Source: JAFGIT01 sp016929465 [NCBI: Candidatus Coatesbacteria bacterium]
Lineage (GTDB): Bacteria > B130-G9
Direction: 5' to 3'
DNA: 6,289 bases
Assembly (NCBI GenBank): GCA_016929465.1
Contig: JAFGIT010000319.1
Location: 1 to 6,289 of the forward strand
Below are positions 392 to 6,130 of this stretch, in pieces. Under the pieces are notes generated by a model, which worked only from the letters and a program-made list of their open reading frames with translations, did not search any database and was not told where the DNA came from. The translations under genes were made by a program, and so were the position numbers. Position 1 is the stretch's first letter. Each line of letters begins with the position of its first letter.

Positions 392-418
392 GCTATAAGC
401 AAAGAGACTCCAGCGAAA

Positions 419-456
419 GCCGACCAGATGTACCATGTTTGGCATATCTGGTTGGC
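419..456. repeat. 38-nt imperfect inverted repeat / hairpin in the predicted leader
   Basis: The outer arms GCCGACCAGAT (419-429) and ATCTGGTTGGC (446-456) pair over 11 positions with one G-T. The pairing continues inward for six more positions to a 4-nt loop (436-439). Overall 14 of 17 positions are Watson-Crick. Read as a minus-strand transcript, the stem has two A-C mismatches and one G-U. It starts about 30 nt after the predicted sigma-54 start and ends about 28 nt before the AGAGGA of the small frame. On the minus strand it is followed only by TTTCGC, too few T for a good terminator. It could be a leader hairpin, a protein-binding palindrome or a weak terminator of the large gene. Confidence 0.55.
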
Positions 457-495
457 CCGCTAATACAAAACACAACAGACCACACTCATAATATT

Positions 496-512
496 AGCAA
501 TTCGTATGCCAA
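496..512 (-). promoter_or_regulatory. Sigma-54 (-24/-12) promoter reading toward the response regulator
   Basis: The minus strand reads TTGGCATACGAATTGCT. Against the consensus TGGCACG-N4-TTGC(A/T) it matches 10 of 12 informative positions. GG and GC are separated by exactly 10 nt, which is the defining spacing, and TTGCT is a perfect -12 element. Placing C497 at -12 puts transcription start near 485. It would transcribe the possible 68-codon frame and then the response regulator. Such promoters need an enhancer-binding protein with a GAFTGA loop; one is encoded immediately upstream. Confidence 0.65.
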
Positions 513-712: not shown

Positions 713-3700
713 TCAATCGCTCTCTGAGGGCCTATATTCATCGAGTGACAGGCCGTGTTTCTTGACCAATCGATAGAAATTTTGTCTCGACAGCCCCGCC
801 ATTCTTGCAGCTTGAGCCACATTGCCACCGGATGCCTTTAGTACAGTATTCAGGCGAGATGCCTCCACATTGTCCTTTACATCCTTGAGGCGCGCAACCT
901 GCTTCTCGCCTTTTTCCACCAATCCCAGGTCGGCCTCGGTGATGGTGCTGCCGGATGAGATCAATATTGCCTTCTCCACCTTGTTCTGCAGTTCTCGGAC
1001 ATTTCCGGGCCAGTTATGGTGCATCATCCTCTCCACAGCCTTCACGGAGAACATTTTCTTTCTCTTGTTGTACTTCTTCTTGCCCAATGCGAGAAAGTAA
1101 TTGGCCAGACGTAGAATATCGTCGTCTCGATCTCTGATTGGAGGCAATGGCAGGTGAATTACGCTCAATCTATAGAATAGGTCTTCCCTGAATTCGCCCT
1201 CTTTCACGGCGACCTCCAGGTCACGATTGGTCGCCGCGATTATTCTGCAATCGATCTTTATCTCCCCCTCGCCGCCGACCCGTTCGATCGTCCTGTTCTC
1301 CAAAAATCTCAGGAGTCGGACTTGCATATCGAGTGAAAGCTCCCCTATCTCATCGAGGAAGATCGACCCCTTGTGACCGTATTCCAATCGTCCTTTTTTC
1401 TGCTTGTGCGCGCCCGTAAATGCCCCTCTCTCGAAACCGAATAGTTCTGCCTCGACCAGGTCTCTCGGGATTGCGCCACAATTGATGACAACAAGTTTCT
1501 CCTCTCTCCTGAGACTCCTGTCATGTATAGCTCGGGCGAGCAGTTCCTTCCCGGTCCCCGTTTCACCGGTTATCAGGACCGTCACATCTGTCTTGACGAC
1601 CTTAGATGCCTTTATCATTACTTTCTGCAGGATCTCGCTCGTCCCGATGATCTCCGGAAAGACCCCAGGCCTCGCGGGGATGTCGTGCTTGCTCGGTAGT
1701 AGCATGGGCGGCACACTTTGCTCCTCACCGAGTAGTCTGATCCTGTCAATCAATTCTGCAATGTAGAAGCTCTGCCTATCATGCCGCACAGAGTCTTCGA
1801 TGGCCTTGGCCGCAAGTCTGGTAAGCGACTGAATGGCCATAAACGGGTGATTTCCGGGCATCTCCAACAATTCTGGCGTGTCCAGATATATCGCCCCGAG
1901 TCGCTCGTTTTTTCCATTGAGGGGGACGCATACTAACGAGCCGTCGATGCTGAGTTCGTGAAGCCAATCCGGTCTCTCTGTTCCACGTCTGATGAATAGA
2001 GGGGTGCCGGTCAGGTTCACTCGTCTGCTAATCTGTTCTGGCCCGTGGAGCCGGTTGGGATCGAGTACTTTGCCTTTTTTGTCCATTGCCCTCGTCATCT
2101 TCAATCGGCCACTATCTGCCTTGATCGCAATGCAGGCTCTCTCGAAGGGAGTGGCGGCTAGCAGATGAGAGAGTATGATATCGCATGCCTCCGTTAGTTC
2201 TACACCGGGCAGGTCAAAGCCGGCGGGAATCGCGCTTTCCCCGGCATCCATCGCGTCTTCGTTCCCAGCGACCTTCGTCGCGGGCGGAAAATCCTTCTCC
2301 ATCTCTCTCTGAATGACGCCCCATGACCTGGCGAATCGCTTCATGCTCCCCTTGCCGGAGAATTGTGTCTTCCGGTCAGCGGGTAGGGTCAATATCAGGG
2401 CATCGATTGCGGACGCTGCCTTTGCATAGGAAGTGTAGCTCTCAGAGAGTTTGCTGGCCTTTAGATTGTAGTCGCCGAGCGCCCAGAATAGTTGGAATTT
2501 CAGCATGGGCAATGATAGATGCTGCAGGATGGAATTCGCCCGGCTCAGACAGATTGCTGCATCGTCGAGTTTCTTCTCCTCCATGTGAACTCGCGAAAGC
2601 GTCACAAGGCAAGTGAATTGATCCGAAGGCCTTCTCGCGCCCTCGAGCAAGTTAAGTACTTCTCTGCAGAGCTCACGACTCCTGTCATACTCGCCAATCT
2701 CGAGGTGAGCTCCTGCAAGCCCCAGCATCGCCGGGATGGCCGTTGGAAGCTTGCGCCTGGGCTTGTCATCCAGCGCGGACCCGAGACTGAAGATCGCCGT
2801 CAGATGATCCCCCATTCCGAGATGATCGAGGCCAATCTGCAGCGCTACGTTCTCGGAAATCAATGGTTCGCCTTCACTCACCAGAAGCTTCGAGGCCTCG
2901 AAGTGCGAACGGAACGCGCCATCGAAGTCCCCTATCTCCCTCATTATCTCTCCACGTGTGATAAGAGCAGCCGCAAGCCCGCGTACATCGCCAATCAGCC
3001 GCTTTATTGATATTGCCTCCTCGATATGGCTGATTGATGCCTCGAAATCACCCTGTCTCAACAGATTGCTTGCCATATTCTGCATTGTTGTCGATGCATT
3101 CCGTCGATCGCCGACTCTCTGGAAAATGGACAGCGCCTCCTTATAGGAGCTCATCGCTTCAGTCATCTCAGATTGCTCTGCCCGAGCGGAGCCTATACTA
3201 TTCAGAGTAACTGCGAGCCTATGATCTTCGCCAACCTTCTCATAGCTTTTCTTGGCTTGAATGAACCGGCCGAGAGCCTGCTCGTATTCACCCTTAGCCC
3301 AGAAGACGGCGCCGATATTATGCAAGATCGCCCCCCGCTCGTTCTCATTCTTGGCGAGTTCAGCGCTTCCCAGCGCATCCTTGAAGTACTTGAGAGCGGC
3401 ATCGACTTCGCCCTGCAGCCAATGTATTTTGCCCAGAGCGTGAGCGGCCAATCCCTCGCTGGCAGGATTGGAATCAGCAGCGGCGATCGCTTTCGCTTCA
3501 GCAAGGACCTCTGTGGACCTTTTCAATTCGCCCTTGAGTCTGTGCACTTCCGCTATTCCCATCTTGCTTGCGAATCGCTCGGAATTAAGATCGACCTTCT
3601 CGGCAAATTCTAGAGCTTTCTCGTAGCTCTCGGCCGCCTGGTCGTAATTCGAGAGCAACAATTGCAGGTCTCCGCGCCCGCGGTATAGCTCTATGCCATA

Positions 3701-5977
3701 TTGAGACTTCCTGTTTATCGAGAGGTTCTCCGCTATAGAATCGAATAAGAGAATCGCTTCATTCAGGAGTTCGAGTGCCCTGGTATTGCAGCCTGTCTCG
3801 CGGAAAACCTCCCAGAACGCCTTAGCCATCTGGAAGGCCTCCTCGGTCATCTCCGACTTCACGAGATCATATGTCATATTTAGCTTCGACTCACATTCGT
3901 CGCCGCCCCCCGGAGGCAACTTACGCGCATACTCAACGGCCTTGCGATGTATGGCCAGCATCTCCTCTCGCCCGATTCCCTCCAGACAAGCTCGCTTGAA
4001 CACATCATGCCTGAAGTCTACGGTGGTTGCCGCTGGAAGCAGGCGCCAATTCAGAATGCCTAACCTGCAAAGATCGTCTATGGAACGGATAAGGCGACCC
4101 TTGAATTCGCTTACGGATCCGATTAGAGAAGCGGTCCTGTGGCCGGCTAGTACTGCAATGGTCTTGAGCAAGCGCACAGATGCCCCGTCGAGATTCGCGA
4201 GAATGTGGTGTGCGAGGGCCTCTGGCGTGGCGGCCCCTATCGGTATTTGAGATGTCTCCAGTTTTTTCTTGACCTCTTGATCAATCGGGATTGAGAGGTT
4301 TCCCTTCAGACAGATGACCCTTGCCGCCGCTGACAGCCAGGCCGGATTCCCGCCGAAAGTGTCATATAGCGTTGCGGACAGCCCTCTGAGTGGCGTTTTT
4401 GAGCCGAGGATGGAGCCGAGGATGCCTGCAGCCATTTCTTCGCTCACGGCTCCCAATTCGATCGTCTCAGAGACCGAGCCGGAGCTCTTGTACACTCCTG
4501 TTGAAGGCGGATGTGCCGGAGTAGGAGCACCTTCACAGAACAACGGAGGGCAATTCTCCTCCATTCGAGGGGATGTAACGAGCACGAATAGCCCACCCCG
4601 CGAGCTCTTATCGATCTGCCTCCTTCCGGTCAGTTCACGCCAGAGATCGGACAATATCGAGATCGATGGCCCGAGCATATTCTGCGCGTCGTCGAGAATC
4701 AGAACCCAGAATTCACGTTTGAGCAGGGTCAATGCCGTCTGGATTGACTTCTTATGCAGCGCCTTTGACATTTTCCGTATCGATGTCGCTTGCTCGATGC
4801 CAGTTTGCTCCGACTGCTGCTCGATTATCCGCTGCAGGTCTCGACGAATCGAATTGAGCGAGTCCAGTAGAGGCTTGCTCTGCCTTCCTTTGACCGTGGA
4901 AATCGCGGATAGCAGAAGCTGGAGAATGCTGCAATACGGGTTCAATGATGTGCTCGAACAGAAGGACCTTGCCACGGGATACCCCTTCTGTCGGCATGCC
5001 TCGGCGAACTCATCTGCTATGACGGATTTGCCTGCTCCCGAGACGCCGGAGAGGCGTATAGCCCCTGAGCCCCTGCTCCTGGCCTTGGCGAGAGACTCCA
5101 TCAGCTGAGCCATAACCTCATCTCTCCCATTCAGGGGAGCACAGAACAAGCAGCAAGGGGCAGAGAGCTTTCGTGAGTGACCCGCTACAGAATCACCGAA
5201 AGATGGTCTCAGCAGCTCTAGCAGCTCCATACATGATTGAGGTCTCTTGGCGGGCTCGGGATTCGTCGATTCGAGAACCATATTGAGCACGTTCTGATCG
5301 GCTCTTCTCATGGCGTTGCCGAGGAATTCCCGCGCGGAGCTTCTGTCAGCTGATTGGAGCTTTGCGAGCGAGTCGCGATTCAGCTGTCCCCCGGAAAGCA
5401 GATCGAAGGCTATAAGTCCGAAGCAATAGATGTCCGAACGCGGGTCGATTATACAGGCTGGGCCCAACTCGGGGGGATAATAAAGAGCTTCATCGCTCGT
5501 TTCGCCAGGAGCAATCCTGCCTCCCCAAAAGCCGAGATCAAGTAAGAAGACCTTATCCGTGCCAGCATCGAAGAGCACATTGTTAGGTCGCAGGTTCCCA
5601 TGGAACTCGCCCTTGGAATGGAGCTCGGCGAGTGTCGAGAAGAATCTGGAGAGAAGCCTCGTTCGCTCTTTCGCACTTTCGAGAGGGACATCGGTGATCG
5701 AAACGCCGGAGACCATATCGATCTCATGGAAGATCGTCTTCCCTGTTTTTTCGATTTGGCCGACTTTGGGGACGAATGGAAATTCAACGCTGCGCATCTG
5801 CTCATGGCTTCTGAGAAAGGCCAGCTTGAGGGGTGGATCGCAGGAGGCCGTATCGAGCGCCTTGAGCACCAGATTCTCTTCGGTAACTCCGCTTGTCACG
5901 GATAGCGTCAGAAGGGAACCGCGATTTGCGAGTTCCCTTTGTAACGAGTATTTATCGGGCAGCCAAGACAAATCCAT
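713..5977 (-). CDS. Giant sigma-54-dependent transcriptional activator: kinase-like / STAND ATPase / TPR / GAF / AAA+ / Fis HTH
   Basis: Cytoplasmic regulator of 1754 aa with no membrane segment; family members are usually annotated 'sigma 54-interacting transcriptional regulator'. Domains: (1) kinase-like, about 9-258, with K39 in LVLKA, catalytic loop HGNLRPNN (126-133), DLG (147-149), PPE (168-170) and SDIYCFG (181-187). N128 replaces the catalytic Asp and no GxGxxG loop is visible, so it is probably a pseudokinase. (2) AAA_16/STAND ATPase from about 282, Walker A GVSGAGKS (311-318), Walker B VLILDD (425-430), followed by a winged-helix-like tail ending in FRHDVFKRA (655-663). (3) About eleven TPRs, 761-1195, many at exact 40-residue spacing. 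(4) GAF-like, about 1258-1395. (5) Sigma-54 AAA+, about 1440-1670: Walker A GETGTGKE (1471-1478), GAFTGA (1518-1523), Walker B IFLDE, FYRLSV, WPGNVREL. (6) Fis-type HTH, about 1708-1740. All AAA+ residues needed to remodel sigma-54 RNA polymerase look intact. ATG 5977 is the only plausible start: the frame has an upstream stop about 27 nt away. Its ribosome site is poor (GGGGA, 14 nt away). Inputs (ligand for GAF or TPR) are unknown. The likely target is the sigma-54 promoter downstream. Confidence 0.95.
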   Translation of the reverse strand: MDLSWLPDKYSLQRELANRGSLLTLSVTSGVTEENLVLKALDTASCDPPLKLAFLRSHEQMRSVEFPFVPKVGQIEKTGKTIFHEIDMVSGVSITDVPLESAKERTRLLSRFFSTLAELHSKGEFHGNLRPNNVLFDAGTDKVFLLDLGFWGGRIAPGETSDEALYYPPELGPACIIDPRSDIYCFGLIAFDLLSGGQLNRDSLAKLQSADRSSAREFLGNAMRRADQNVLNMVLESTNPEPAKRPQSCMELLELLRPSFGDSVAGHSRKLSAPCCLFCAPLNGRDEVMAQLMESLAKARSRGSGAIRLSGVSGAGKSVIADEFAEACRQKGYPVARSFCSSTSLNPYCSILQLLLSAISTVKGRQSKPLLDSLNSIRRDLQRIIEQQSEQTGIEQATSIRKMSKALHKKSIQTALTLLKREFWVLILDDAQNMLGPSISILSDLWRELTGRRQIDKSSRGGLFVLVTSPRMEENCPPLFCEGAPTPAHPPSTGVYKSSGSVSETIELGAVSEEMAAGILGSILGSKTPLRGLSATLYDTFGGNPAWLSAAARVICLKGNLSIPIDQEVKKKLETSQIPIGAATPEALAHHILANLDGASVRLLKTIAVLAGHRTASLIGSVSEFKGRLIRSIDDLCRLGILNWRLLPAATTVDFRHDVFKRACLEGIGREEMLAIHRKAVEYARKLPPGGGDECESKLNMTYDLVKSEMTEEAFQMAKAFWEVFRETGCNTRALELLNEAILLFDSIAENLSINRKSQYGIELYRGRGDLQLLLSNYDQAAESYEKALEFAEKVDLNSERFASKMGIAEVHRLKGELKRSTEVLAEAKAIAAADSNPASEGLAAHALGKIHWLQGEVDAALKYFKDALGSAELAKNENERGAILHNIGAVFWAKGEYEQALGRFIQAKKSYEKVGEDHRLAVTLNSIGSARAEQSEMTEAMSSYKEALSIFQRVGDRRNASTTMQNMASNLLRQGDFEASISHIEEAISIKRLIGDVRGLAAALITRGEIMREIGDFDGAFRSHFEASKLLVSEGEPLISENVALQIGLDHLGMGDHLTAIFSLGSALDDKPRRKLPTAIPAMLGLAGAHLEIGEYDRSRELCREVLNLLEGARRPSDQFTCLVTLSRVHMEEKKLDDAAICLSRANSILQHLSLPMLKFQLFWALGDYNLKASKLSESYTSYAKAASAIDALILTLPADRKTQFSGKGSMKRFARSWGVIQREMEKDFPPATKVAGNEDAMDAGESAIPAGFDLPGVELTEACDIILSHLLAATPFERACIAIKADSGRLKMTRAMDKKGKVLDPNRLHGPEQISRRVNLTGTPLFIRRGTERPDWLHELSIDGSLVCVPLNGKNERLGAIYLDTPELLEMPGNHPFMAIQSLTRLAAKAIEDSVRHDRQSFYIAELIDRIRLLGEEQSVPPMLLPSKHDIPARPGVFPEIIGTSEILQKVMIKASKVVKTDVTVLITGETGTGKELLARAIHDRSLRREEKLVVINCGAIPRDLVEAELFGFERGAFTGAHKQKKGRLEYGHKGSIFLDEIGELSLDMQVRLLRFLENRTIERVGGEGEIKIDCRIIAATNRDLEVAVKEGEFREDLFYRLSVIHLPLPPIRDRDDDILRLANYFLALGKKKYNKRKKMFSVKAVERMMHHNWPGNVRELQNKVEKAILISSGSTITEADLGLVEKGEKQVARLKDVKDNVEASRLNTVLKASGGNVAQAARMAGLSRQNFYRLVKKHGLSLDEYRPSESD

Positions 5978-6067: not shown

Positions 6068-6130
6068 GATGTCATAAATAGTTACGCTATCCAAGAGTCG
6101 ATTTCAAGTTGTTTTCTGAACGGGTGTGAC

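Follow-up and report, generated by a model that had tools for sequence, protein, structure and literature searches.

A predicted sigma-54 promoter between a giant activator gene and a lone receiver, and a candidate regulon that includes a conserved noncoding RNA

Organization of the locus

The window, the whole stretch of DNA analysed here, is the entire contig C43 (6,289 nucleotides) of genome G000, an assembly of 423 contigs that is 86% complete. On its minus strand lie, in order, the gene for a giant sigma-54 activator (bEBP) of 1754 residues (positions 713-5977), a spacer of 562 bases and the 5′ part of a response regulator gene (1-150, with TTG at 150 or ATG at 102 as the first codon). 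The response regulator is truncated by the contig end, and contig C128 begins with the remaining part of its receiver domain (C128:1-282), a stretch of 93 codons up to the stop, beyond which lies a convergent gene. The receiver is recognized by PF00072 in the G001 ortholog. It has no output domain and therefore would not, by itself, form the second transcriptional layer that the first-pass annotation of this DNA had assigned to it.

The phylum sample used for comparison consists of four genomes, G000, G001, G002 and G003. The order of giant gene, spacer and lone receiver is common to G000 (across the contig break), G001 and G002, giving two syntenic loci besides the window. When contigs were scanned with two peptide patterns for further loci, only G002 itself and one weak Pirellulales match were returned. 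At gathering level, Rfam models matched two tRNAs and nothing else in the window and in loci L040-L042. A small protein encoded in the response regulator leader was considered and rejected: the long frames there, including one of 135 codons in G001, are unlike one another in the window, G001 and G002, and the stretch that they have in common, QPD, is short.

Architecture of the giant activator

The giant is composed of a pseudokinase-like domain, an AAA_16 ATPase, a TPR array, a GAF-aligned region, a Sigma54_activat AAA+ domain and a Fis-type helix-turn-helix (HTH). The Sigma54_activat, HTH_8, AAA_16 and several TPR models exceed their Pfam cut-offs. The AAA+ domain (residues 1443-1609, positions 1151-1651 on the minus strand; 238.9 bits) contains Walker motifs and the intact GAFTGA that had been reported for it (residues 1518-1523, 1409-1426), and the protein thus has the defining sequence features of a bEBP. 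The HTH_8 domain (residues 1703-1739, 761-871; 27.1 bits against a cut-off of 22) has a recognition helix, SRQNFYRL, that is identical in G001 and differs in G002 by a change of F to L.

The protein-kinase-like domain (residues 32-247, 5237-5884 on the minus strand) scores 27.9 bits, below the Pfam cut-off of 31.7, and the HRD position reads HGN in all three giant orthologs, leaving the domain without the catalytic Asp of an active Ser/Thr kinase. It is likely a pseudokinase, and because of the low score and the HGN in three orthologs, the kinase-type sensing that had been proposed for this protein is doubtful. Pfam does not call a GAF domain in the giant itself, although the corresponding region aligns with the GAF-bearing stretch of a 1840-residue paralog in G001. 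A Pfam scan found no HisKA in the giant, and hence no sign of the C-terminal histidine kinase of HstK-type proteins.

G001 encodes a full ortholog, also of 1754 residues, that aligns with the giant at 50% identity, and in G002 the ortholog is divided between two contigs. In G003, whose assembly is 83% complete, we found no giant, leader hairpin, close receiver or giant-like HTH, and the closest match to the HTH of the giant scored 23 bits. The 1840-residue paralog of G001 (L043:6249-11771, minus strand) has an intact kinase domain followed by AAA_16, TPR, GAF, Sigma54_activat and HTH_8, and a counterpart of 1841 residues is present in G003 (L044:434-5959); Pfam domains were scanned in the G001 protein only. 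In both genomes, the next gene encodes a protein of 484 residues.

A predicted −24/−12 promoter reads into the response regulator

The predicted sigma-54 promoter, TGGCATACGAATTGCT, lies at 511-496 on the minus strand, directly downstream of the activator gene and reading into the response regulator, as the first-pass annotation had it. Scored over the 12 positions of TGGCACG-N4-TTGCW, it matches at 10 with exact GG-N10-GC spacing, and with that spacing fixed it is the sole site of at least 10/12 in the window, both strands counted. Transcription is predicted to start at 485, which sigma-54 geometry places 26 bases on from the T of TGGC. On the opposite strand, a frame of 99 residues covers the site. 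When the 562-base spacer was shuffled 5000 times with its dinucleotides preserved, a site of at least 10/12 appeared on the strand reading into the response regulator in 1.9% of the shuffles (0.019), so the site taken alone is suggestive but is no proof.

The spacer of G001 contains a 10/12 site, TGGCACAATGAATGCT, in the same aligned column, where the chance of a 10/12 site in that spacer is 0.045. Outside the features described here, the window and G001 spacers are 43% identical, and in 200,000 simulations of decay at this background identity a 10/12 site survives in 0.13%. The plain identity of the sigma-54 stretch, 11 of 16, is equalled by 71 of 638 windows and is therefore unexceptional. 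The expectation that the −24/−12 bases would be conserved in syntenic relatives thus held for G001 but failed for G002, in whose spacer the strand reading into the response regulator offers no sigma-54 match better than 7/12. At the corresponding place, G002 has a 10/12 sigma-70-like pair, TTGACG-N18-TATAGT, and there appears to have been a swap between sigma-54 and sigma-70 promoters between genera at an otherwise conserved leader.

The G002 pair raises the alternative that 511-496 matches by chance or that it belongs to a sigma-70 promoter with an extended −10 (TGC-TAATAT in the window, TGC-TAGTAT in G001) and a poor −35. By eye, TTGAAC-N18-TAATAT can be read in the window and TTGCAT-N18-TAGTAT in G001, and chance alone would give the spacer a 10/12 sigma-54 site with a probability of about 2%. 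A scan for sigma-70-type pairs, however, found none in the first 760 bases of the window and, in G001, one elsewhere and none at the site. This reading also leaves unexplained both the conserved TGGCA of the −24 element and the dyad described below, which lies 143-144 bp upstream in a geometry matched at the RNA promoter. We consider it improbable and favor a sigma-54 promoter at this position.

We also asked how such sites are distributed in the phylum. The pattern TGGCAY-N5-TTGCW has 11 matches in G000 compared with 5 for the same pattern read backward, but 24 compared with 22 over G000-G003 together, so there is no overall numerical enrichment. Seven of the other 23 matches are intergenic, 12-161 bases ahead of a frame, and 16 are within frames. 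Some of the intergenic matches precede frames with what we take to be FlgB-like and GvpA-like starts, and canonical −24/−12 sites look to be in use in this phylum. G000 encodes RpoN (PF04552, 180 bits) in an open frame of 511 residues, presumably with a Q-rich start and the RpoN box SRRAVAKYRE, both judged by eye.

Three further observations concern the surroundings of these sites. G000 shows this layout once more on contig C413 (L085, G000:C413:7060-7075), where a sigma-54 site downstream of another activator gene points into the frame that comes next. The string GTTGTG(G)TTTTG directly follows both predicted sigma-54 starts in G000, one copy being in the window (476-466, minus strand) and the other at the start of the RNA gene described below. 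A similar repeat, GTAGCCGTAGG..CCTACGG, was recognized by eye in the G002 spacer (L041:3790-3980), after the G001 RNA gene (L104) and at a G003 contig end (L107:2200-2362), where the contig terminates in the repeat just upstream of rplM; the repeat may be the cause of contig breaks and is perhaps the cause of the promoter change in G002.

A 15-bp dyad upstream of the promoter and near the start of the giant gene

A 15-bp dyad, GTCATACATTGTTAC, lies at 655-669 on the minus strand, 144 bp ahead of the −24 T, and is a candidate enhancer (UAS). Its G001 equivalent, GTCACACAATGTTAC, is 143 bp ahead of the −24 T, and neutral decay keeps the spacer dyad in 0.017% of simulations. A second copy of the 15-mer in the window, GTCATAAATAGTTAC (6071-6085, plus strand), differs from the dyad by one mismatch and is located 94 bp upstream of the start of the giant gene; G001 has a counterpart, GTCATAAAAAGTTAC, 105 bp upstream of the giant start and also with one mismatch. 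The position of these copies suggests an autoregulatory site through which the giant would regulate itself. We found no sigma-54 site of at least 8/12 at the promoter of the giant.

The G002 locus differs here as well. Its response regulator spacer has no dyad with fewer than two mismatches, the one 2-mismatch match lying beyond the hairpin, and the promoter of its giant has none with up to 2 mismatches. A stretch of that promoter, GTAACCTATTTATGCTC, looks dyad-like by eye but has more than 2 mismatches and was not counted. The proposed cascade from giant to response regulator is therefore favored by the G001 site and by the near-identical 144 and 143 bp spacings, whereas G002, with neither the site nor a dyad of fewer than two mismatches, does not follow it.

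The dyad pattern GTMAYA-N3-TRTKAC was derived by eye from the spacer copies, after the sequences had been viewed, and the 15-mer pattern GTCAYAMAWWGTTAC was built from the four copies at the giant locus, which makes it circular for those copies. Exact matches to GTCAYAMAWWGTTAC number two in G000, two in G001 and none in G002 or G003, all of them at the locus of the giant. Allowing one mismatch adds three in G000-G003, for 7 in total compared with 4 for the backward control; two of the three (G000 and G002) represent one orthologous promoter, and the third (G002:C59) lacks a 9/12 sigma-54 site in its vicinity. The dyad pattern itself occurs at 11 places in the four genomes compared with 7 for its backward control. 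Two of these are the seeds, five fall at one orthologous promoter found in all four genomes, and four are within open frames. For three of the in-frame dyads, no sigma-54 site of 9/12 was found across a locus of ∼1.8-3 kb, and for the fourth the nearest is about 790 bases away. Since the number of matches hardly exceeds that of the backward-read controls, the signal in the dyad, as far as these sequences go, is its position.

A conserved hairpin in the response regulator leader

The 5′ end of the response regulator leader contains a conserved hairpin of 48 nt (413-460, minus strand), present in single copy in G000, G001 and G002; a search of G003 with the hairpin model found none. The hairpin begins at +26 in the window and +28 in G001 relative to the predicted sigma-54 starts, and at about +21 from the predicted sigma-70-like start in G002. 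Folding z-scores around it are −6.2 in the window (410-470), −1.4 in G001, where the right arm was clipped, and −2.0 in G002, and for longer stretches of the leader they are −4.0, −2.0 and −0.2, respectively. In the alignment, 89.5% of cells pair, and two pairs have changed on both sides. As 119 of 500 shuffles equal those two, three hairpin sequences cannot prove a role as RNA.

This leaves some room for reading 413-460 as a long DNA operator in place of an RNA element, a question that concerns the hairpin alone and is compatible with the other readings. The arms are conserved and the loop is variable, and the opposite strand is also scored by the hairpin model, with E-values of 0.002 and 0.013. 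By hand count, A-C mismatches are about as frequent as G-U, so neither strand is preferred. On the other hand, 19 pairs is long for a dimer site, the distance from the hairpin to the predicted transcript start is kept in spite of the different promoter type in G002, and two pairs are double-changed, with the reservation given above. We regard an operator as the less probable function and tentatively retain the hairpin as a feature of the leader RNA.

A second predicted promoter with paired dyads precedes a ∼300-nt RNA gene

The dyad search led to a larger candidate target outside the window, a conserved RNA gene at another locus, whose promoter is present in all four genomes. There, two dyads stand exactly 68 bp apart in every genome, with mismatches (far/near) of 1/0 in G000, 0/1 in G001, 0/0 in G002 and 0/2 in G003. 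The near dyad is followed by an 11/12 sigma-54 site whose −24 element lies 145, 143, 122 and 144 bp away in G000, G001, G002 and G003, respectively, the G002 distance being about two helical turns below the others. Sigma-54 sites of 11/12 occur four times in 122,747 bases of phylum DNA, and all four are at the RNA promoters. Pairwise identity in the promoter region is 36-66%. A divergent gene on the other side of the promoter encodes, in G002, a family-2 glycosyltransferase.

The conserved stretch measures 291-308 bases between the predicted start and the terminator T-run. A terminator hairpin with a T-run is found in all four genomes by eye and is paired in the alignment fold. RNAalifold predicts 65 pairs, of which 11 have both sides changed in some sequence. 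In a core of 91 columns, 4 of 32 pairs are double-changed compared with 1.0 in shuffles, and a count of 4 is reached in 1 of 500 shuffles; pair types show no excess (407 of 500 shuffles). When the core structure is slid by +1, 3 double-changed pairs remain, with the share of paired cells dropping to 52% from 94.5%. Single-sequence folds have z-scores of −5.8 in G000 and −2.2 in G001. The longest sense frame has 49 codons and antisense frames reach 97; the covariation disfavors antisense coding. In all four genomes, the gene is thus predicted to have what a sigma-54-dependent regulatory RNA should have in its sequence: a −24/−12 promoter, a terminator and no conserved sense frame.

At E-values up to 5, an Rfam search of L102, L104, L105 and L096 returned only one chance match, to a human lncRNA family. 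A model of the RNA core finds one match per genome in all four phylum genomes. Outside the phylum, where a cut-off of 0.1 per genome was used with stricter filters in force, 382 other genomes gave 6 matches at E-values of 0.004-0.05, no more than expected by chance. The core was found neither in plasmids or phages nor, when searched as a 26-mer, in viral contigs. Pairing of the new RNA with the response regulator leader was considered and set aside, because shuffles paired as well in 100, 10 and 24 of 100 cases for G000, G001 and G002, respectively.

Beyond the RNA terminator, G000 and G002 have a PqqD/radical-SAM operon (L102:1-2110 and L103:4679-7649, both on the minus strand). In G002 its Pfam content is PqqD, a PqqD-radical-SAM-SPASM fusion and a weak HPr-kinase match, a RiPP-like set for peptide modification. 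The operon is absent from the contig of the RNA gene in G001, and the G003 contig stops about 350 bases past the RNA.

A candidate regulon and the protein that would bind the dyad

The best-supported addition to the first-pass annotation is a candidate regulon under one dyad, made up of the giant locus and the receiver promoter, with the RNA gene as a member in each of the four genomes. The sequences themselves show where the sites lie, how they are conserved and spaced, and that the RNA covaries. From these we infer the binding of the dyad by the giant and the activity of the promoters, and the identity of the dyad binder is the weakest link of the regulon. The giant is favored because of its proximity and because the exact 15-mer is exclusive to its locus.

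The main argument against the giant as binder comes from G003, which retains the dyads and the RNA with no detectable giant or giant-like HTH. Several other activators are encoded in these genomes, and the giant of G002 has no dyad nearby, so one could suppose that another sigma-54 activator binds the dyad and that the giant, the receiver and the RNA are all its targets. The restriction of the exact 15-mer in G000 and G001 to the giant locus speaks against this, as does the nearly unchanged recognition helix across the three giants, which parallels the constancy of the dyad across genomes. The giant is, moreover, less naturally seen as a mere target when its own promoter is devoid of a sigma-54 site of at least 8/12. 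Control by another activator is in our judgment unlikely, though a good deal less so than a chance or sigma-70 origin of the 511-496 site, and we take the giant to be the probable binder. A further protein of interest is encoded in G002 (G002:C2, L123:709-1692), a 327-residue AAA+ protein with Walker motifs and an HTH 58% identical to that of the giant. We saw no GAFTGA in it by eye, and it could be a non-activating competitor for the same dyads.

With the giant as binder, the lone receiver and its leader with the hairpin would be transcribed from a functional sigma-54 promoter at 511-496. The giant would sense a signal through its ATPase/TPR/GAF-like front half, assemble its AAA+ domain and, with its Fis-type HTH bound to the 15-bp dyad some 144 bp upstream, remodel RpoN polymerase. 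It may also control its own gene through the 15-mer close to the start. Its most widely kept target would be the ∼300-nt terminated noncoding RNA, reached through the paired dyads and the 11/12 promoter. We put at roughly two in three the probability that this noncoding RNA, present throughout the phylum sample, is driven by the giant, as is the neighboring receiver in two of the three lineages.

A more far-reaching version assigns roles to the targets, which we infer in turn. The giant could be the dedicated switch of an uncatalogued, phylum-wide RNA family and of a lone phospho-receiver with an RNA-hairpin leader, its pseudokinase/ATPase sensor feeding an RNA branch and a phosphorelay branch via RpoN; genera would differ by gain or loss of the receiver branch, as in the sigma-70 swap of G002. 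For this version we consider the odds to be about even.

Comparison with known systems

A search of open-licence PMC literature found nothing on the architecture of the giant or on the RNA. The natural comparison class for the giant is the sigma-54 activators (bEBPs) of the NtrC/XylR/FhlA kind. Like them, it has a Sigma54_activat domain with GAFTGA and a Fis-type HTH, and it is accompanied by predicted −24/−12 promoters with a candidate dyad 122-145 bp upstream. It differs from them in its length of 1754 residues and in its front, which is pseudokinase-like with AAA_16 and TPR and is not a receiver, PAS or V4R domain.

The HstK-type kinases of cyanobacteria are described as having a Ser/Thr kinase, GAF and histidine kinase in one protein (PMC2176072, PMC1262709). 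The giant resembles them in joining a Ser/Thr-kinase-like front, GAF (in the paralog at least) and a signaling output in one long chain. It is unlike HstK in that its output is a sigma-54 AAA+ domain and HTH with no HisKA, its catalytic Asp is missing and a TPR array is present.

Regulatory RNAs that depend on sigma-54 include GlmY/GlmZ, and Pxr of Myxococcus. Qrr of Vibrio is described as another (PMC10162802). The new RNA is like all of these, as far as its sequence tells, in being free-standing behind a −24/−12 promoter with upstream activator sites. It is unlike them in its length of ∼300 nt, and no Rfam relation was found for it. What began as a promoter-like string has become a small, testable candidate regulon. 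Its elements are two predicted sigma-54 promoters, a proposed binding site, a candidate site of autoregulation and a non-Rfam RNA family. If the regulon is as proposed, a noncoding RNA is here under sigma-54 control, exerted by an activator with a sensor half that departs from the textbook types.
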